This document shows positions 37,595-64,000 of a stretch of 64,000 nucleotides of DNA, in pieces; position 1 is the first letter of the stretch, and each line of letters begins with the position of its first letter. Source of the DNA: Flavobacterium marginilacus (GTDB lineage: Bacteria > Bacteroidota > Bacteroidia > Flavobacteriales > Flavobacteriaceae); NCBI RefSeq assembly GCF_026870155.1, contig NZ_CP113975.1:1736001-1800000 (forward strand). The letters are read 5' to 3'. The notes beneath the pieces are model-generated. The model saw only the letters and a program-made list of their open reading frames with translations. It had not been told where the DNA came from and did not search any database. A program made the position numbers and the translations under genes.

Positions 37595-38264
37595 TTTCCC
37601 ATTTGTAGCCTAAGCCATAAATTGTTCTGATGTAATCGCCGCTTCCTGCTTTGTGCAGTTTCTTTTTTAAATTCTTTATGTGGGCGTAAATAAAATCGTG
37701 GTTGTCAAGCATATCCGCCATATCTCCCGAAAGATGTTCGGCAATAGCTCCCTTGGACAGAACTTTATTATTGTTGCCAATTAAAAACAGCAGTAAGTCG
37801 ATTTCTTTTTTGGTGAGATCGAGTTTTTGACCGCTGACAGTTACTGTTTTAGAGAAAATATCAATAGTGATTTCGTTGAAAACAACACTATTGCTTCCCT
37901 GGAAATTCTTCCGGCGGATGAGTGCCTGCATGCGTACTAAAAGTTCCGAAAGATGAAAAGGCTTGGTCAGATAGTCATCGGCACCAAGATTAAAACCTTC
38001 AATGCGGGTATCTAAATTTTCTTTTGCAGAGATAATAATAATGCCCTCGGTTTTGTTTTTGCTTTTTAATTCTTTTAAAATAGTAAACCCGTCTCCATCA
38101 GGCAGCATTAAATCCAATAATATGCAGTCGTAGTCGTAGTTATCAATCTTGGTAAGTGCCAATGCACAATTGGAAGCCGTTTCGCATTGAATGCCGTTGG
38201 TCTTAAAATAATCTGAAATGCTTTGAGCAATTTCCTGCTCATCTTCGATAATTAAAATTTTCAT
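37587..38264 (-). CDS. OmpR/PhoB-family response regulator
   Basis: 225 residues. The receiver has Asp51 in CILLDLMLPDGDG, acidic pair Glu7-Asp8 and Lys in DDYLTKPF near 101. The C-terminal winged helix (about 128-222) has the trans_reg_C pattern LDLTKKEIDLLLFL and YIRTIYGLGYKW. OmpR-type regulators bind tandem direct repeats about 10-11 bp apart near -35. Two such repeats occur upstream of each of three neighbouring genes, so these are the inferred targets. Confidence 0.92.
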   Translation of the reverse strand: MKILIIEDEQEIAQSISDYFKTNGIQCETASNCALALTKIDNYDYDCILLDLMLPDGDGFTILKELKSKNKTEGIIIISAKENLDTRIEGFNLGADDYLTKPFHLSELLVRMQALIRRKNFQGSNSVVFNEITIDIFSKTVTVSGQKLDLTKKEIDLLLFLIGNNNKVLSKGAIAEHLSGDMADMLDNHDFIYAHIKNLKKKLHKAGSGDYIRTIYGLGYKWENE

Positions 38265-56370: not shown

Positions 56371-56560
56371 AGCCAATACTTTTACCAAGGTATCATCTGT
56401 GTCCTATTTTTTTTAGATGTGTCCAGACGGCAAGACATAAATCCTCTTTGCGGCGATTCAGATTCCATATCTGTAAGGGTGGATGGATGCGGAGTGATTC
56501 CGTTCAACACGAGTTTTATTGTTTGTGCTGCGCACGCAACGAAACTCTAGCAGTTGGCAG
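56371..56560 (-). repeat. attC-like palindrome remnant R1 at array edge
   Basis: Gap between the DUF1634 gene and the cassette array. Its right end GTTGGCAGTAG (56553-56563) is the same end found in the other palindromes, 4 bp from a cassette-gene stop. Next to it is a hairpin GAGTTTTATTGTTTGTGC / GCACGCAACGAAACTC (about 56514-56547). A matching GCTAAC left end is not clear, so this is the most degenerate of the set. Confidence 0.5.
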
Positions 56561-56566
56561 TAGTTT

Positions 56567-57067
56567 TTATTTTTCGATATCTAAACTATAAAACTCTCCG
56601 AAATCTTTGCATTTTATAAATATTTCGTTTGGCAAGCCATTTTTTAAATTTACGACTGTTACTGCGTTGCAATCGCAATTATCTTTTTTATTGTATGCAA
56701 AATATAGTTTCCCATTTTCTAATTTGTCTGGAATTTCATAACTCATACTTAATCCATAATTTCCATAATACGTGTTATTTTGATTGAAAATCAGTATTCT
56801 AGTTGTTGCTCTATGTGATAAACCCCAGAACCAAATGGAGTTCATCACTTTGAATGTTTTTCCATTTTTTGTTTTTACTTTTCCTAAATATGTTAAGTGA
56901 GTTTCGGTTCCTCCTTTTTTTGACCATTTACCAAAGGTATAAGTCTTATTGGGAAGATTACTTCTAAGAACTGTTTGTTGTATCGAATTGTCATTTGTTT
57001 GTCCTTTAGAAATCATGGAAACAAATAACACTAAGAATTGTGTAATATATTTTTTGTGCTGTCTCAT
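56567..57067 (-). CDS. Cassette gene A: exported protein of unknown function
   Basis: 166 residues with a signal peptide (MISKGQ-T). The rest is a beta-rich domain with Trp/Tyr residues (SIWFWGLSHRATTRILIFNQ, GLSMSYEIPDKL) and a CDCNAVTVVNLKNG loop with a Cys-Asp-Cys. No family recognised. It sits alone between palindromes, in the same orientation as the other cassette genes. Confidence 0.8.
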   Translation of the reverse strand: MRQHKKYITQFLVLFVSMISKGQTNDNSIQQTVLRSNLPNKTYTFGKWSKKGGTETHLTYLGKVKTKNGKTFKVMNSIWFWGLSHRATTRILIFNQNNTYYGNYGLSMSYEIPDKLENGKLYFAYNKKDNCDCNAVTVVNLKNGLPNEIFIKCKDFGEFYSLDIEK

Positions 57068-57073
57068 AAAATT

Positions 57074-57140
57074 ACTGCCTACCTCCTGGGGCTACAAGAG
57101 GTTTGGGGTTAAATTAAGCCTTATTTTCGGATTTACCTAA
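57074..57140 (-). repeat. attC-like palindrome R2, left half only
   Basis: ACTGCCTACCTCC then GGGGCTACAAGAGGTTTGGGG and TTAAATTAAGCC match the left halves of the palindromes at 58122 and 59820 (CTACAAGAGGTTTGGG, TTAAATTAAG). The right half (CCCAAATC...GTTAGC) is missing, and about 80 bp on lies a group II intron end. Confidence 0.6.
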
Positions 57141-57221
57141 AATTTCCCAGATACCTCCAAGAAATTGGATTAGGAAAGTTTACTTTAGCCTAATCTTAAA
57201 GTAAATTATGGATAGCCCAAA

Positions 57222-57324
57222 AGGTGTAAAGAGCTTTTGGATGATGATTTGCGAACCGCCGAGTAAGCTCGGTGGTGTGAGAGGCGCACTCCGTCCCTTT
57301 AGAGGCGGAGCCGTCTACTCGATT
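57222..57324 (+). mobile_element. Group II intron 3' end remnant (domains V-VI)
   Basis: The segment GAACCGCCGAGTAAGCTCGG, then TGGTGTGAGAGGCGC, CTCCGTCCCTTTAGAGGCGGAG and CTACTCGATT (57315-57324), follows the typical 3' end of Bacteroidota group II introns: a short hairpin, the conserved GGTGTGAGAGG, a second hairpin and CTACTCGAT. No reverse transcriptase gene is present, so only the tail of the intron remains. It ends at the stop codon of the next cassette gene (57323). Confidence 0.7.
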
Positions 57325-58099
57325 AGAGGTCGTTGTTTCCGCGCATTTTCATTTCATTTTTATATTCTTCTCTATAATTTCCATTTTCATCAAACTTGCT
57401 TTCGAATTGTCTGTAACTTATATTTCCCAAAAAGGCATTTGATTTATTGTTTCCCATAGAAAGCCGTAATTGGGTTTTATAATTCCCTTTAAAAATGGGC
57501 ACTAATGTTATGGCTATTTCTTTTGGGGGCAAAATGATAGTCCCAACTCCATTTCCACACATATAGACAAATCTTTCTTGTATAGGTTTCCATTTACCCA
57601 ATTTATTTTTCGCTTCCAAAATCAAAGGAATTCTATCTCCAAAACCAATTGCAATTGTATCTTTAGTTCTGTTTCTTAATAGAGCAGTATAAAAATTATT
57701 AATTTTTTTAGAGCTTATTTGAATTTCAACTTTTTGCTCTTTCATAAATGAATAACGATTTTTTTTGTCCCATTCAATATAATATTCTGCGTTTGGACGT
57801 TGTCGCTTTTCAATTTTTGTACCTTTCTTTCTATTCTGGGGAAATTCAGCAATTGAAAAAGCTTCTATCCCTAATGATATAGAATCTTTCAATTTTCCTA
57901 TATAGTTAAAATTGTAGTTTGCTGTAGAAATCCAAGTTGGATTTTCTTCATCAAAAAGTGACCCATACTTAATATTTCTTGGATTTGTTACTGTAGGAAA
58001 AATTGTTACTGGTTCGCTTTTCGGCACGACCTTTTTTACTTCATCTTTGCATCCAAAAAACAACAATAAAACAGATAATATTAGATATGATTTTTTCAT
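57323..58099 (-). CDS. Cassette gene B: lipoprotein of unknown function
   Basis: 258 residues with a lipobox LLLFFGC-K at residue 17. It contains basic RKKGTKIEKRQRPNAEYY near 92-109 and later PLILEAKNKLGKWKPIQERF; no family recognised. Flanked by palindrome R2/intron relic downstream and palindrome R3 upstream. Confidence 0.8.
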   Translation of the reverse strand: MKKSYLILSVLLLFFGCKDEVKKVVPKSEPVTIFPTVTNPRNIKYGSLFDEENPTWISTANYNFNYIGKLKDSISLGIEAFSIAEFPQNRKKGTKIEKRQRPNAEYYIEWDKKNRYSFMKEQKVEIQISSKKINNFYTALLRNRTKDTIAIGFGDRIPLILEAKNKLGKWKPIQERFVYMCGNGVGTIILPPKEIAITLVPIFKGNYKTQLRLSMGNNKSNAFLGNISYRQFESKFDENGNYREEYKNEMKMRGNNDL

Positions 58100-58121
58100 A
58101 GGTGTGGTTTTTTACAATGAC

Positions 58122-58254
58122 CGCTAACGTGTTGCTACTACAGCGGGTTTGGGGTTAAATTAAGTCTTATTTTCAGATTTGCCTAAACTTTAAAATACAA
58201 GACCATTTTTTAAATTAAGCCAATTGCCCAAATCTCTTGTAGCAAGTGTTAGCA
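58122..58254 (-). repeat. attC-like palindrome R3
   Basis: About 133 bp, imperfect inverted repeat. The left end CGCTAACGTGTTGCTAC...GGGTTTGGG pairs with CCCAAATCTCTTGTAGCAAGTGTTAGC on the right (ends 58253). The right end lies 9 bp after the stop of the next gene on the - strand. The middle is AT-rich and unpaired. Layout: stop, 9 bp, palindrome, next gene. Confidence 0.75.
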
Positions 58255-58572
58255 GTCGTACCTTATTTTATTTCGTTGTATTTTTTCAAAAAATCATTTA
58301 GTTTAGTTTCGTCAATTGTAAAGTCTTTATTGATAACGTTATTTTCTGCTAATGCAAAAATCAATTGATTTCTACCGATTATTTTTCCGTTTGAGAAAGT
58401 CTTATTCTGAGGAATGAATGTAATGATGTTTGAAAATTTTCCATCTCCAAGTGAAGAAATATCTCCTGATATAATTTCCACATTTTTTAACGTAGAAATT
58501 GAGAAATGATTTCCTTCTTTTTTATAATTAAATGCATTTTGATTATTCAGTATAATATTTTCTTTGGTGGAT

Positions 58573-59553
58573 TCAACATATAAATGCAACAGTATTCAAT
58601 TTATTGATTTTTTCGGCGAAAATTTCATTAGGTGTTTTATAGCCAAATCTTTTTCTGGGTCTGTTGTTTAATGTATTAACTACTGTTTTTATTTGTTGTT
58701 CTTCGATGTTTTCAAAGTTAGATTTTTTAGGAAAATATTGTCTTATTAATCCGTTTAAATTTTCATTGGCTCCTCGTTCCCAGCTATGGTAGGGTTTGGC
58801 AAAATAATAATCGATATCTAAATCTTCTGCAATGGCCCGATGATTGGCAAATTCCTTTCCATTATCCGAAGTAATGGTCTTGATTATTGGTTTCCAATCT
58901 TTCAATAATTCAATTGTTTTCTGCTGTATTGCACTAGCTTCTTTGCTTTCTACTTTTCCCATAAAAAGTATTCCAGAGGCTCTGTCATTGATAGTTAGTA
59001 ACGCTCCTTTGTGATTCTTACCAATGACCAAATCAATCTCTAAATCGCCCAATCTACTTTTCTTTTCTACAATCTTTGGACGCTCGCTAATATCGACCCT
59101 ACCAATAATAAGTCCTCTTTTATCCTTTAAATGTCCTCTTTTTTTATACTTTTTACCCTTGGTCCTAAGATGTTTATATAAGAGTCCTCCTTTGCGTTTA
59201 TTTTCCCAAATATATTGATAGATTCTTTCTTTAGAAACCATTGCTCTTTTGTCAATTTTTGCTCTGCCAACAATTTGTTCAGGACTGTAATCTTGCTTTA
59301 AATAAAACAAAATATTTGCTTCAACTTCTGAGGTTAAAGTGCATTTTTTGATCTTAACCTTATGCCTGTTTAAAGCTTTTTTATCCGCCAAAACAGCTTT
59401 ATAAACACCACTTCTTTGATCAGAATTACGTTTTATTTCTCGAGAAATAACTGATTTGTTTTTATCTACCAATTCAGCAATTTCGGAAATACTGATACCG
59501 GCATTTCTATATACTTCTATTTTGTATCTTTGTTCTAACGTTAAATGTGCCAT
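58573..59553 (-). CDS. IS30-family transposase
   Basis: 326 residues with the IS30 helix-turn-helix start (HLTLEQRYKIEVYRNAGIS) and the DDE integrase core: Asp in GDLEIDLVIG, Asp in TITSDNGKEF and Glu in WERGANENLNG. Its last two codons and stop (ATATGTTGA in - sense) lie beyond the element, inside the target gene. Confidence 0.92.
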   Translation of the reverse strand: MAHLTLEQRYKIEVYRNAGISISEIAELVDKNKSVISREIKRNSDQRSGVYKAVLADKKALNRHKVKIKKCTLTSEVEANILFYLKQDYSPEQIVGRAKIDKRAMVSKERIYQYIWENKRKGGLLYKHLRTKGKKYKKRGHLKDKRGLIIGRVDISERPKIVEKKSRLGDLEIDLVIGKNHKGALLTINDRASGILFMGKVESKEASAIQQKTIELLKDWKPIIKTITSDNGKEFANHRAIAEDLDIDYYFAKPYHSWERGANENLNGLIRQYFPKKSNFENIEEQQIKTVVNTLNNRPRKRFGYKTPNEIFAEKINKLNTVAFIC

Positions 59554-59667
59554 CTATTTTGAGTGTTGCAACCCAAAGATATGATGATTTTTTCGCCAAC
59601 TCTAGTGTTATTCTTTTGACCTAGGTCAAAAGAATAACACTAGAGTTTTTTTTCACGTTGCATTTAT
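58580..59667 (-). mobile_element. IS30-family insertion sequence
   Basis: About 1.09 kb, bounded by inverted 11-bp ends ATAAATGCAAC (58580-58590 on +) and GTTGCATTTAT (59657-59667 on +). The target is gene C. A TA duplication is possible from the reconstruction. The end adjacent to the transposase start contains the 50-bp palindrome at 59598. Confidence 0.8.
59598..59647. repeat. Perfect 50-bp palindrome
   Basis: AACTCTAGTGTTATTCTTTT then GACCT, and its exact inverse without spacer (centre between 59622 and 59623). Just after it (+) are eight T. It lies inside the IS30, 45 bp before the transposase start. It may be a transcription barrier that protects the transposase from outside transcription, or the footprint of a terminal end joined to itself. 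Confidence 0.85.
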
Positions 59668-59819
59668 TACTTGAATCTAAGTTTATCAAACTTCACATCT
59701 GTTATATTTTGTTCTTGTTGTGCAGATACTGCTTGAAAAGTAAGCATCAGAAAAATAAAAAGGATTTTAAAAGATTTCATATTTATTTGGTTTTTATAAA
59801 TTATATTGGTCTGGTATGA

Positions 59820-59954
59820 CTGCTAACGTCTTGGCGCTACAAGAGGTTTGGGATTAAAGATGCGAGTTTTTTCCATTATGCACAAATTTCCTAAGTACAA
59901 AACCATTTTTAAATTCAGCCCGATGCCCAAATCTCTTGTAACGGCTGTTAGCAG
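59820..59954 (-). repeat. attC-like palindrome R4
   Basis: About 135 bp, the best preserved. Left CTGCTAACGTCTTGGCGCTACAAGAGGTTTGGG (59820 on) against right CCCAAATCTCTTGTAACGGCTGTTAGCAG (ends 59954). The two arms differ by an unpaired stretch (GTCTTGGCGC against AGCC), the asymmetry expected of single-strand recombination sites. Its right end lies 9 bp after the stop of the next - strand gene. Confidence 0.8.
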
Positions 59955-59962
59955 TAGTAGTT

Positions 59963-60655
59963 TTATCTGTCTTCTCGTAAAGGGTCTATATTTGTTAATG
60001 GTTCAAAAGTCAAAAGTTTTATAGGTTGTTTTTTACCAATATTTTCCTTTGTGTAATTTTTACGCCCACTTCCTTCATAGGTTTCTTTTATTCCTGTCAA
60101 TAAATTAATATCTGTAATATATTGTTCAGGATTAGGAACTTGATATTCGTTGCTTGTAGCTCCAATTAATTCAAAATCATTTTTTTTAAGACCAAAATAA
60201 TAAGAATATTGTGTTCTTAATGTGCCTCCTGAAGAGAAAATAATTCCTAATGTGTTTTTTCGTTTTGTCAAATTCGAGTAAGCATCTGTCCCTTGTATTC
60301 CCCAATTACAAGTTCCAAAAATAGTAGATGTTTCAATTATTTTCTCATATCCTTTAGATTGTTTATTTAGTAAAACAATAAGTTTTTTGGGAAAGTAAAT
60401 TGAATCTCCAAAACAAATAGTGTCGTTTTTTAAAATGACTGCTTTTTTTGATTTCAATACAAATGCAATATCATCAATCTTATCTTTATTAAAATCGCAA
60501 GAAATACTATCTGTTACTTCCATATTCTGAGGAATAAAAACTTTCCAATTAGTAGTTTTTGTCGATTCAACTTTGTTTTCTGATTTATTAAAATTGCAAG
60601 AAGTTAGTAATAAGCAACTCGCGATAATTTTTAATTTAAAGACTATTTTTTTCAT
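59963..60655 (-). CDS. Cassette gene D: lipoprotein of unknown function
   Basis: 230 residues with a lipobox LLTSC-N (Cys at 20). The domain has the VCBS/FG-GAP-like phrase CDFNKDKIDDIAFVLKSKKA near 53-72, and the C terminus reads LLTFEPLTNIDPLREDR. No precise family. Between palindrome R4 and the split palindrome at 62245. Confidence 0.78.
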   Translation of the reverse strand: MKKIVFKLKIIASCLLLTSCNFNKSENKVESTKTTNWKVFIPQNMEVTDSISCDFNKDKIDDIAFVLKSKKAVILKNDTICFGDSIYFPKKLIVLLNKQSKGYEKIIETSTIFGTCNWGIQGTDAYSNLTKRKNTLGIIFSSGGTLRTQYSYYFGLKKNDFELIGATSNEYQVPNPEQYITDINLLTGIKETYEGSGRKNYTKENIGKKQPIKLLTFEPLTNIDPLREDR

Positions 60656-60719
60656 AGGTTATTGAATTCTCCTCATTTTTGGGACTATTCTAACTAACGT
60701 TTTTGTAAATATCTAAAAA

Positions 60720-62096
60720 CTAAATTGTTACAAAGTTAAAATCATCGACTTTGAATTGATGTTTTTCCATTTGTTTTTGTATTCTTCTTTGTACCGCTAG
60801 TTTTCTTTTTTCGTCTAAATATAAGTAATTTTCCGGATTATAGTAGGAGGTGTTTTTTACAATCATATTCCAAATGATTATACCTAATTTTCTTGCTGTT
60901 GCGCTTATGGCAGATACTCTTCCTTTTCGAAAATTAATTCGATGAAAAAAGTCTCTCAGAGGTGTTGATTCTTTTAAATTTCCGATGGCATTGGCAGCAT
61001 TCCTCAGGGCTATTTTCAAGCGGTTACTCCCTTTTGGCACGCGAGAACTGAGTACTTTTCCGCCACTTATTTTATTGTTCGGAGTAAGTCTGAGCCAGCT
61101 TGCAAATTGTTTGGCTGTACCGAATTTTTTAATCCCTTCTAACCCCACTTCGCTCATTAATGTAAGTAAGGTTTGATGGCTGAATCCTTCTATCTTTAAT
61201 AAATCTACTCCTTCGAAGTATTGATAGCCAATGAGGTTTAAATCAATATTTTTAGGTGTATTTTTATTAACTCTTTTATGAACTTTCGGATCCGTGTAAT
61301 GTTGCTTTTTATTGTTGCTGCTGTCAATCTGGTCTTGAAGTAATTTTTTTATTTCTATATCGCAGTCTTTGATCTGATTTTGCAGATTTTGATACATCTG
61401 GTATTCCTGCTTTAGGGCAAATAGATAATCTTTACGGCCGTTGCTTTGGAGTGCTTTTTGCATTTCTGCTTCACTTTTTTTACAGTTTCCGTTTCTCAGG
61501 GAGGCTAATTTCTGAGAATCAGTTTCGCCATTACAAATGGCTTCTATCATCTTAAGTCCTGTCAAACCACAAATATCTTTAACAATTATATCCAGACGAA
61601 GGTTGAGTAAACGAAGGTATTTTTGCATTTTCTTGCTTGTGTCAGCAGCAACATCAATTAAACCGGCTCTGTGTCGGCAATAAGTTCGGAGTTGTTCAGT
61701 TTGTAAATCTGGCAAAAAACTTCCAGATAATAGGCCTATGGAATGTAATTTTTGTATCCATTGGCAGTCTTGTACATCGGTTTTCTTTCCTTTGATGTTT
61801 TTGGTAAATTTTCCATTGCACAATATCACTTGAAAACCATCGTTTATCAAAACAGCATATAATGCTTGCCAATAAGTGCCTGTACTTTCCATTGCTACAG
61901 TTTGGATGCCATTTCCTTTGAGCCAATCTGATATTGCTTTGAGGTCTTCATTATAAACACCAAACTCTCTTACGTGTTCTTCTTTTTGACCAATAGCTAC
62001 AAAATGACTCCTGCTTCCGATGTCTATTCCTGCTGCTTGAGGATTGACAATCTCCATCAAAATTTGATTTTGTTCTTTCATTCTGATTCTGAACAT
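60720..62096 (-). CDS. IS110-family transposase (DEDD), copy 1
   Basis: 458 residues. The N-terminal DEDD_Tnp part has AGIDIGSRSHFVA, MESTGTYWQAL and KKTDVQDCQW. The C-terminal Tnp20 part has IEGFSHQTLLTLMSEVG, then FASWLRLTPNNKISGGK with a serine. It is identical to the copy at 62582. Confidence 0.93.
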   Translation of the reverse strand: MFRIRMKEQNQILMEIVNPQAAGIDIGSRSHFVAIGQKEEHVREFGVYNEDLKAISDWLKGNGIQTVAMESTGTYWQALYAVLINDGFQVILCNGKFTKNIKGKKTDVQDCQWIQKLHSIGLLSGSFLPDLQTEQLRTYCRHRAGLIDVAADTSKKMQKYLRLLNLRLDIIVKDICGLTGLKMIEAICNGETDSQKLASLRNGNCKKSEAEMQKALQSNGRKDYLFALKQEYQMYQNLQNQIKDCDIEIKKLLQDQIDSSNNKKQHYTDPKVHKRVNKNTPKNIDLNLIGYQYFEGVDLLKIEGFSHQTLLTLMSEVGLEGIKKFGTAKQFASWLRLTPNNKISGGKVLSSRVPKGSNRLKIALRNAANAIGNLKESTPLRDFFHRINFRKGRVSAISATARKLGIIIWNMIVKNTSYYNPENYLYLDEKRKLAVQRRIQKQMEKHQFKVDDFNFVTI

Positions 62097-62245
62097 TTAA
62101 ATTAAAAAAATACTCAAAGAGGAAGTTCTTTCGGATAAATAAAATATTCTAATCGGGGTTACAAAAAAAATGTACCACCACTGGAGGTATCACACACTTC
62201 CCAACCAGGATTACACTCGTGCTATTACGCAACAGTTTACAAATC
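62097..62245 (-). ncRNA. Candidate bridge RNA region of IS110 copy 1
   Basis: IS110-family elements carry a bridge RNA in the noncoding end next to the transposase start. Here about 150 bp upstream of the transposase is noncoding, while only about 20 bp lies downstream, so the RNA would be encoded here. It includes a possible hairpin around ACCTCCAGTGGTGG. The exact RNA is not resolved. Confidence 0.4.
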
Positions 62246-62306
62246 GGCCTTGCAATGAGCGTAGCTAATTTATGTTTTTTTGATTTTTTATGCAATGGCC
62301 GTTAGC
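62245..62306 (-). repeat. attC-like palindrome R5a, right part, split by IS110
   Basis: CGGCCTTGCAATGAGCG ... TGCAATGGCCGTTAGC. Its missing left end CTAACG is at 60694-60699, on the other side of the IS110 copy. Arms GCTAACGGCC-TTGCA and its inverse pair well. Confidence 0.6.
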
Positions 62307-62341
62307 TTCGGGAGGTAAGGCAGGCGGACTATGAGGGATTA

Positions 62342-62478
62342 CAGCTAACGTTTCGCGGCTATGCGAAGTGCCTTCTCTTTGCCGCTTCACTAATAATAGC
62401 TAAAATAGCCAAATTTTTCAATTTGTACTATTTTATCCAAAAAAAGCGGAAGGCATTTCTCATAGCCGCTGTTGGGAG
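62342..62478 (-). repeat. attC-like palindrome R5
   Basis: CAGCTAACGTTTCGCGGCTATGCGAAGTGCCTTC (62342 on) pairs with GAAGGCATTTCTCATAGCCGCTGTTGGGAG (ending 62478). Only 35 bp separate it from R5a and it encloses or borders no gene. R4 and R5 share only the end words, not the arm sequences. Confidence 0.7.
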
Positions 62479-62561
62479 TAGTTACTGACTTATACACAAT
62501 CCATATTTTAATCAGTAACGGAGTTGGATAGACTACTCCTGTCTTTTTCTTCTAACTAACG

Positions 62562-64000
62562 TTTTTGTAAATATCTAAAAACTAAATTGTTACAAAGTTA
62601 AAATCATCGACTTTGAATTGATGTTTTTCCATTTGTTTTTGTATTCTTCTTTGTACCGCTAGTTTTCTTTTTTCGTCTAAATATAAGTAATTTTCCGGAT
62701 TATAGTAGGAGGTGTTTTTTACAATCATATTCCAAATGATTATACCTAATTTTCTTGCTGTTGCGCTTATGGCAGATACTCTTCCTTTTCGAAAATTAAT
62801 TCGATGAAAAAAGTCTCTCAGAGGTGTTGATTCTTTTAAATTTCCGATGGCATTGGCAGCATTCCTCAGGGCTATTTTCAAGCGGTTACTCCCTTTTGGC
62901 ACGCGAGAACTGAGTACTTTTCCGCCACTTATTTTATTGTTCGGAGTAAGTCTGAGCCAGCTTGCAAATTGTTTGGCTGTACCGAATTTTTTAATCCCTT
63001 CTAACCCCACTTCGCTCATTAATGTAAGTAAGGTTTGATGGCTGAATCCTTCTATCTTTAATAAATCTACTCCTTCGAAGTATTGATAGCCAATGAGGTT
63101 TAAATCAATATTTTTAGGTGTATTTTTATTAACTCTTTTATGAACTTTCGGATCCGTGTAATGTTGCTTTTTATTGTTGCTGCTGTCAATCTGGTCTTGA
63201 AGTAATTTTTTTATTTCTATATCGCAGTCTTTGATCTGATTTTGCAGATTTTGATACATCTGGTATTCCTGCTTTAGGGCAAATAGATAATCTTTACGGC
63301 CGTTGCTTTGGAGTGCTTTTTGCATTTCTGCTTCACTTTTTTTACAGTTTCCGTTTCTCAGGGAGGCTAATTTCTGAGAATCAGTTTCGCCATTACAAAT
63401 GGCTTCTATCATCTTAAGTCCTGTCAAACCACAAATATCTTTAACAATTATATCCAGACGAAGGTTGAGTAAACGAAGGTATTTTTGCATTTTCTTGCTT
63501 GTGTCAGCAGCAACATCAATTAAACCGGCTCTGTGTCGGCAATAAGTTCGGAGTTGTTCAGTTTGTAAATCTGGCAAAAAACTTCCAGATAATAGGCCTA
63601 TGGAATGTAATTTTTGTATCCATTGGCAGTCTTGTACATCGGTTTTCTTTCCTTTGATGTTTTTGGTAAATTTTCCATTGCACAATATCACTTGAAAACC
63701 ATCGTTTATCAAAACAGCATATAATGCTTGCCAATAAGTGCCTGTACTTTCCATTGCTACAGTTTGGATGCCATTTCCTTTGAGCCAATCTGATATTGCT
63801 TTGAGGTCTTCATTATAAACACCAAACTCTCTTACGTGTTCTTCTTTTTGACCAATAGCTACAAAATGACTCCTGCTTCCGATGTCTATTCCTGCTGCTT
63901 GAGGATTGACAATCTCCATCAAAATTTGATTTTGTTCTTTCATTCTGATTCTGAACATTTAAATTAAAAAAATACTCAAAGAGGAAGTTCTTTCGGATAA
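62562..64000 (-). mobile_element. IS110-family element, copy 2, runs off the window
   Basis: Bases from 62550 on repeat those from 60688 on at a constant offset of 1862, through 64000 (matching 62138). The left flank again reads TTCTAACTAACG, so this copy too seems to have entered a CTAACG palindrome edge. The right end is beyond the window. Confidence 0.8.
62582..63958 (-). CDS. IS110-family transposase (DEDD), copy 2
   Basis: 458 residues, identical to copy 1 in protein and, where compared, in DNA. Same DEDD and Tnp20 motifs. Identity implies recent duplication or a shared assembly source. Confidence 0.93.
   Translation of the reverse strand: MFRIRMKEQNQILMEIVNPQAAGIDIGSRSHFVAIGQKEEHVREFGVYNEDLKAISDWLKGNGIQTVAMESTGTYWQALYAVLINDGFQVILCNGKFTKNIKGKKTDVQDCQWIQKLHSIGLLSGSFLPDLQTEQLRTYCRHRAGLIDVAADTSKKMQKYLRLLNLRLDIIVKDICGLTGLKMIEAICNGETDSQKLASLRNGNCKKSEAEMQKALQSNGRKDYLFALKQEYQMYQNLQNQIKDCDIEIKKLLQDQIDSSNNKKQHYTDPKVHKRVNKNTPKNIDLNLIGYQYFEGVDLLKIEGFSHQTLLTLMSEVGLEGIKKFGTAKQFASWLRLTPNNKISGGKVLSSRVPKGSNRLKIALRNAANAIGNLKESTPLRDFFHRINFRKGRVSAISATARKLGIIIWNMIVKNTSYYNPENYLYLDEKRKLAVQRRIQKQMEKHQFKVDDFNFVTI

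Follow-up and report, generated by a model that had tools for sequence, protein, structure and literature searches.

Sedentary chromosomal integrons of the Vibrio cholerae type consist of a recombinase gene and an attI site that head a same-strand array of one-gene cassettes; the crossover takes place at G|TT, each cassette has two mutually pairing ends, the sites are asymmetric hairpins, there are many repeats, and the contents are mostly of unknown function. The consensus ends of their hairpin sites, attC, are RYYYAAC and GTTRRRY. Here we consider a 64,000-nucleotide stretch of the Flavobacterium marginilacus genome (contig NZ_CP113975.1, positions 1,736,001 to 1,800,000 of the forward strand; below, the window), near the end of which genes for small proteins alternate with palindromes. 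With a probability of roughly 0.86, this piece is an outlying, decayed part of a cassette system that resembles integrons and occurs in Flavobacterium and its relatives, with a dedicated recombinase, an attI-like site and hairpin-ended cassettes. The system shares with the V. cholerae type all the features listed above; it differs in that its recombinase lies outside the IntI clade and lacks the additional domain, its sites end in GTTRBNNG instead of GTTRRRY, and the sites have conserved mismatches and a 4-nt bulge rather than extrahelical bases.

In passages of the relevant papers, IntI is defined by an additional domain around patch III, known as I2 (PMC9668308), whereas canonical attC sites are described as having extrahelical bases, an unpaired central spacer and asymmetric features, and as folding from the bottom strand (PMC2727003). 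The gain of the I2 helix is held there to let IntI handle folded single-stranded sites, and the origin of integrons is presented as a chicken-and-egg paradox in the order of events, with intermediates lacking (both PMC4792948, PMC7790495). The Bacteroidota are named among the integron-bearing phyla in passages of two papers, one of which also ascribes the additional domain to IntIs. In the titles, abstract openings and passages of the open literature, neither integrons of Flavobacterium nor arrays that lack IntI but have a recombinase of their own were found to be described; subscription papers and preprints lay outside this coverage, and an earlier description is possible.

Three other systems are to be compared. 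The window piece was likened to a cluster of attC sites lacking an integron-integrase (CALIN) in an earlier reading made from the sequence only. This holds insofar as we see a series of cassettes without an adjacent integrase, but not in the strict sense, as a CALIN is defined on canonical attC, whereas the sites here are non-canonical and the recombinase of the system is not IntI. XerA, XerC and XerD share with our recombinase the catalytic fold, and XerA_Arch gives it the best family score; unlike them, it carries some 60 additional residues as an N-terminal domain and is linked to cassette arrays. Finally, Acinetobacter has modules with short Xer sites. There, as far as the available part of the source tells, site-flanked resistance genes move as modules (PMC7399989), but by means of the host XerC/XerD, as against a dedicated recombinase, attI and hairpins of about 130 nt here.

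Arrays, cassette boundaries and the hairpin site

The arrays were located by BLAST and an iterated profile, and a covariance model was then built from 31 diverse copies of the palindrome. In the 5.3-Mb genome it finds 116 relatives at E<=1e-4, and in G259, another genome of the same species, 74 at E<=0.001. Thus the alternation of genes and palindromes noticed in the window is real, including two intact elements (58117–58259 and 59816–59958), and the palindromes are not scattered but placed in same-strand arrays. Two of these are large, at approximately 3738–3768 kb and 2306–2324 kb, and all elements throughout each of them lie on the same strand; some palindromes are single and lie outside the large arrays. 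The largest array, about 30 kb, begins behind the gene of a 345-residue tyrosine recombinase and an attI-like site. A generic hairpin scan yields 38 matches in the 60-kb region of this main array versus one in 50 kb of the window outside its array. Elsewhere in the genome, at C1:5216130–5228272 (L007–L013), the end-word match returns every 1719 bases or so, which suggests a long gene or a stretch of large repeats unrelated to the arrays.

Movement of the units as circles opened at G|TT would require that, within each cassette, the word following GTT at the start be complementary to the one preceding AAC at the end, while the two ends of one palindrome within an array need not pair. In the initial count, with a match over five bases required and six elements without readable ends skipped, 50 of 59 neighbours agreed. 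Of the nine exceptions, seven start with GTTATGCG, one starts with GTTGGGAG, and one agrees over four bases. The GTTATGCG cases are explained by a second type of palindrome that the profile had missed: once it is taken into account, the end words behind it agree with the element that comes next. The cassette with this palindrome occurs eight times, six in the first array and two in the second. A type-independent scan covered 24 array pieces from seven genomes, with elements above a score limit and pairs 80–3500 bases apart. The two end words of the cassette were complementary in 141 of 159 neighbouring pairs, whereas the two ends of the same element pair in 8/159; shuffling gave a mean of 8.0 (maximum 19 in 500 rounds).

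The same boundaries emerge from repeated cassettes. In this genome, 100% identical copies are seen for cassettes of 527 bp (seven copies), 453 bp (six), 644 and 432 bp (three each), and 782 and 460 bp (two each); a 458-bp pair is 99.8% identical, and the members of another pair are unequal in length, 496 and 498 bp. In 55 pairwise comparisons, some of them with G259 and some within G030, and one of the 14 repeated families (A3_0/A3_1) being left out, the identity stops within 6 nt of the boundary on the left in 49 cases and on the right in 54. The breakpoints are situated inside or next to ACGTTR, usually at ACG|TTR, and longer runs of identity occur where the neighbouring palindrome or word is alike. 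One comparison between G000 and G259 shows 75% ungapped identity. Recent copying of whole units is hence read off the alignments directly. Many of the repeated cassettes (432–527 bp; arrays A1, A2 and A3 of G000) contain either no open reading frame (ORF) of 60 codons or a very short one; such cassettes may code for RNAs or carry signals.

The structure of the site is conserved as well. Its inner stem of 17 pairs has 88.0% of cells paired, versus 61.0% in shuffles; changes on both sides are observed in 16 of the 17 pairs, and in the alignment of the 31 diverse copies double changes preserve the pair at 13 of 14 consensus pairs. An A on the left of this stem stands opposite a C on the right in all 120 distinct elements, both columns being invariant in the 31-copy alignment. 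The outer stem was assessed in 113 distinct cassette ends, preselected for matching words at positions 4–7. Pairing is found in 113 of them at position 8, in 107 at position 9, in 78 at position 10, in 105 at position 12, and in 87–94 at positions 13–15, whereas the right-hand base at position 11 is always A and pairs in just one of the 113. The A.C mismatch of the inner stem reads T.G in the bottom strand, and the predicted bottom-strand hairpin is the more stable one in 116 of 120 cases, by 4.0 kcal/mol on average, for cassettes with the same preselection at positions 4–7, which favours the circular form over the array form. The seven bottom-strand folds that were printed feature a long stem and the 4-nt bulge beside AAC. 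The words GCTAAC and GTTAGC, noticed earlier as the ends of the palindromes, bound both intact hairpins of the window, which also have the long inner stem, and their deviation from the attC consensus had been stated correctly. Of 141 end words, no more than 9 agree with GTTRRRY at positions 4–7.

The recombinase and its attI-like site

The sequence-only reading found no integrase. This is true of the window piece but not of the genome, where the recombinase gene lies 1.94 Mb away, at 3735795–3736832, directed into the first array; the species thus does have a tyrosine recombinase matching the palindromes, whose existence had been named as a point to check. Its NCBIfam scores are 219.9 for XerA_Arch (cut-off 220), 202.5 for TIGR02249, the integron integrase (265), 193.2 for XerD (329.6) and 185.9 for XerC (335.15). 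With the last two scores below the cut-offs, and with a 100/100 branch setting it apart from XerC/D-like proteins in the tree, the protein is neither XerC nor XerD. Some of its relatives go under the public name 'site-specific tyrosine recombinase/integron integrase', but this is the wording of the XerA_Arch model and no finding of an integron.

That the arrays are a canonical integron, overlooked by software because its IntI and attC sites have merely diverged, is an improbable explanation, although the best of the competing ones. All formal parts of an integron are present, TIGR02249 does match the recombinase, if below the cut-off, and Foldseek places IntI4 chains among the best matches of its predicted structure. 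In a tree of 60 proteins, the array recombinase family and IntI fall within one superclade at 100/100, with XerC/D-like proteins beyond a 100/100 branch. However, the twelve IntI rows form a clade of their own (100/100) from which the family is excluded. Moreover, the IntI insertion is missing: the alignment of each of the 30 fetched IntI loci with the recombinase falls into two blocks, and the stretch between these is far longer in IntI, by approximately 40 residues in the examples that were worked out. The true IntIs of the phylum, found above the TIGR02249 cut-off in 84 of 296 genomes, mostly score 400–497 bits, and the poor fit to GTTRRRY tells against canonical sites. TIGR02249 has no match at E<=1e-50 in this genome, in G259 or in 16 further genomes of the genus, among the genomes listed. 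Thus the system works in an integron-like fashion and is outside the IntI integrons by two tested features, an integrase without the additional domain and the ends of attC. The 60-protein tree does not fix where IntI sits within the superclade, and two earlier trees took in no background recombinases. In four other relatives from the superclade (L224, L225, L226 and L227), no end-matched pairs are seen in the fetched stretches, two of which span 3–5 kb only.

In the AlphaFold model, the recombinase fold is accompanied by an N-terminal alpha-beta domain, which stands apart and measures about 60 residues. The best structure both by sequence and by fold is XerA (5hxy). For the N-terminal domain, the top Foldseek row is the HARP domain of SMARCAL1, which is insignificant (E 0.69, probability 0.38); HARP is absent from the VIA-align rows shown, and Pfam gives no HARP match for this domain, so the predicted likeness is a lead only. 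Shorter relatives of the recombinase, 48–52% identical over residues 99–345 or so, are present on many Acinetobacter plasmids and some plasmids of Klebsiella and Aeromonas; one of them is named TnpF.

The recombinase and the attI-like site stand at the array head both here and in other genomes. The pattern ...TATAWA...|GTTR is found behind the recombinase stop codon in 32 of 46 loci, one of these being a chance match at 23 nt and the others lying 103–174 nt behind the stop. Among the loci without the pattern, close variants are visible by eye, two loci end too soon, and the most diverged ones have none. The site ends in AGTT, and its right end matches the left end of the first element in G000 and others. 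Near the recombinase stop codon, 38 of 47 loci have a TAnnTTTG box, compared to 5.8% of control windows. TAnnTTTG is the promoter motif of the Bacteroidota, and the box is a candidate promoter of the array. In four genomes (L065, L125, L141, L147), ATG and a hairpin come after attI where GTT would be expected; the stem sequence of this hairpin varies between genomes while self-complementarity is kept, and a similar hairpin is situated behind attI on a Chryseobacterium plasmid (L241:17150–17330). Might this be an element that targets attI?

Taken together, the suggested mechanism is as follows. The recombinase encoded directly upstream of the main array would join the attI-like site, located approximately 100–175 nt behind its own stop codon, to the hairpin sites of about 130 nt, with the crossover at ACG|TT. 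The arrays, their common orientation and the cassette boundaries are directly visible in the sequences: each cassette begins with the TT at one ACG|TTR and ends with the G at the following one. On the circular cassette, the complementary end words would complete the hairpin, and inserted cassettes would line up in one direction behind the promoter-like box near the recombinase stop codon. The catalyst is probably the array recombinase, and its substrate the folded bottom strand; the conserved mismatches would then label the strand, a role that in canonical sites falls to the extrahelical bases read by the I2 helix of IntI.

Distribution, strain differences and cassette contents

Within the genus, the recombinase is present in 179 of 299 genomes (E<=1e-55) and the palindromes in 252 of 299 (E<=1e-8, with ten candidates scored per genome). 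The two go together, the palindromes occurring in 169 of the 179 genomes with the recombinase versus 83 of the 120 others (Fisher p 7e-9, uncorrected for kinship). At E<=1e-80, the recombinase is found in 43 of 395 genomes of the phylum. Behind it, arrays with unrelated arm sequences are seen in members of other families (G055, G065, G117, G074) and on one Chryseobacterium plasmid. In these arrays, 17 of 30 pairs have matching ends, the A.C mismatch is present in 22 of 23 elements of matched pairs, and the mismatched A of position 11 in 17 of 17. Recombinase orthologs at 59% reside on two Chryseobacterium plasmids, NZ_CP041688.1 and NZ_CP094530.1 (L241 and L242); on one plasmid of this genus, the recombinase is followed by co-directed cassette-like genes, an IS110 element and, in antisense orientation, a gene for a group II intron maturase.

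A comparison of strains had also been proposed, and the cassettes indeed differ between the two strains of the species. The G259 recombinase is 98% identical and the single match in its genome at E<=1e-80. Its attI is the same up to AGTT, and there the strains diverge: a different cassette follows, with its own ends matching (GTTGGCAGT). At the locus of the window, a flank of 3.3 kb is common to both strains, through a remnant resembling an intron, and other cassette DNA lies beyond. In G259 this DNA is headed by an attI-like site, and the following word matches the first element; no recombinase was found at this locus among the fetched G259 stretches. Since the attI-like site is retained there without a recombinase, the window array looks like a second platform that has lost its recombinase.

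These data bear on another possibility, that the cassettes are moved by a different recombinase, the host XerC/XerD or an unlinked enzyme, and that the one at the array head is a passenger. The genome indeed contains seven matches to PF00589, that is, six besides the array recombinase, and palindromes are frequent in genomes without the latter. On the other hand, the array recombinase heads arrays in many genomes, with the right end of attI being the cassette crossover, and diverged families retain the recombinase, the attI-like site and the array together, while the window locus of G259 illustrates how recombinase-free arrays can arise by loss. Hence we regard this possibility as very improbable, somewhat more so than a diverged canonical integron. 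Settling of small transposable repeats behind genes, similar to miniature inverted-repeat transposable elements or repetitive extragenic palindromes, with the array order incidental, would fit palindromes in such numbers, some of them single, but can be practically dismissed, since the elements of each large array are co-oriented, end words match within the cassette and not within the element, and the copies comprise a gene and a single palindrome and always break off at the same point.

Several observations weigh against a dedicated, integron-like system as the explanation. Apart from the other PF00589 proteins and the preselection of the folded cassettes, 18 of the 159 neighbouring pairs are unmatched, and in 20 further regions behind recombinases 97 of 138 pairs match, unevenly, with zero in several regions. 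The 83 genomes of the genus that bear palindromes without a recombinase match at the threshold used are one side of an imperfect association, and the ten recombinase-bearing genomes without palindromes at the threshold applied the other. No elements turned up in the scan of the stretch that follows the recombinase on the second Chryseobacterium plasmid.

We consider it fairly probable that the arrays represent a second cassette-capture system of the integron type, either invented separately, on the basis of a related recombinase, or surviving from a stage that preceded I2. Such a system would have another hairpin code, of two mismatched As and a bulge, and perhaps the N-terminal domain in the role of I2; it would be spread over Flavobacterium, several families and a plasmid, and should escape tools that search for IntI and for sites of the attC consensus. 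With cassettes that are widespread and a recombinase that lacks the I2 insertion, the system makes the need for I2 testable, and likewise how the choice of strand and the harmful second exchange are handled in another way, and whether integrons have arisen once or twice. It also points to a rich reservoir of mobile genes in bacteria of a common group, most of these genes being without known function.

The median length of the 141 cassettes is 722 bp. A sense ORF of at least 60 amino acids is present in 99 of them, an antisense one in 20, and none in 22; for the sense ORFs, the stop codon precedes AAC by a median of 18 nt. A lipobox is found in 11 of the 141, and putative lipoproteins are thus atypical of the cassettes at large. 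A Pfam scan of 20 cassette proteins left 15 without a match at E<=0.01; the remaining ones match SUKH (SMI1/KNR4), GmrSD_N, Gp49, pentapeptide repeats and, below the cut-off, one more family. When PADLOC was applied to ten cassette proteins, GmrSD was flagged strongly, Gp49 more weakly, and one other marginally.

The array piece in the window

The window array is on the minus strand, and no recombinase adjoins it. The four genes for small proteins that are apparently exported or lipid-anchored are all there, the signal and lipobox calls being made by eye. The earlier statement that each is followed by a palindrome applies to two of them only, as one of the other palindromes is degraded and the last is reduced to its left end word; the short gap between the stop codon and this word was noted correctly, being 6 and 7 nt at the intact elements and 5 nt for the last gene. 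Read in the direction of transcription, the array includes the gene of a 230-residue putative lipoprotein (59963–60655), an intact hairpin (59816–59958; C1:1795816–1795958, E 2.3e-28), and the gene of a putative exported protein (58263–59780, from the reading frames), which is interrupted by a transposase gene of the IS30 type at 58573–59553 (HTH_38 5.3e-13, rve 2.2e-7) and belongs to a cassette with end words agreeing at six of six bases. The second intact hairpin follows (58117–58259; C1:1794117–1794259, E 1.2e-23). Taken singly, the two intact hairpins are modestly unusual, with DNA folding z-scores of -2.6 and -2.7.

Further downstream, the gene of a 258-residue putative lipoprotein (57323–58099) enters with its 3' end a remnant at 57248–57325, on the plus strand, opposite to the cassette genes and next to the degraded hairpin. 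The remnant looks like the 3' portion of a group II intron, although no tool names it so; an 81% match is found on many E. coli plasmids, where it is unannotated. Rfam gives nothing above thresholds for the end of the window. The degraded hairpin (57081–57194, minus strand, E 1.1e-12) keeps its right part and has no significant fold (z -0.8). The last gene, for a putative exported protein of 166 residues (56567–57067), is followed by the left end word of the last hairpin (56553–56564, ACTACTGCCAAC on the minus strand, read from the sequence), the remainder of which is unrecognisable. For the products of the genes at 59963, 57323 and 56567, the Pfam scan yields no family above the cut-off.

The upper part of the array is broken up by an IS110 transposase gene at 60720–62096 (minus strand, Pfam DEDD_Tnp_IS110 1e-21). 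A second copy with the same protein is at 62582–63958 on the same strand, 1862 bp apart from the first, and between the two there is a hairpin of the second sequence type (62338–62482, minus strand; C1:1798338–1798482, E 3.6e-10; folding z -6.1 for 62336–62480). Its ends are ACGTTAGCTG on the right and CTCCCAAC on the left; it is of the same type as the cassette that occurs eight times in the arrays of this genome, and a further copy lies just past the window end. The IS110 gene (458 codons) and this hairpin form an 1862-bp tandem unit. Another IS110 copy lies within a 2267-bp cassette of the main array (L045:8786–10162). Hence IS110 travels in cassettes, being inside one in the main array and paired with a hairpin in the window.

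Insertion sequences of the IS1111-attC group target attC. Two array hairpins (L044–L046 joined at 37849, and L047:9640–9748) are cut at the identical stem position by an identical sequence, which is also seen beside a gene for a 335-residue IS110-like protein just past the window (64605–65612 in its continuation). By analogy with the IS1111-attC elements, it looks like an insertion sequence that targets these hairpins.

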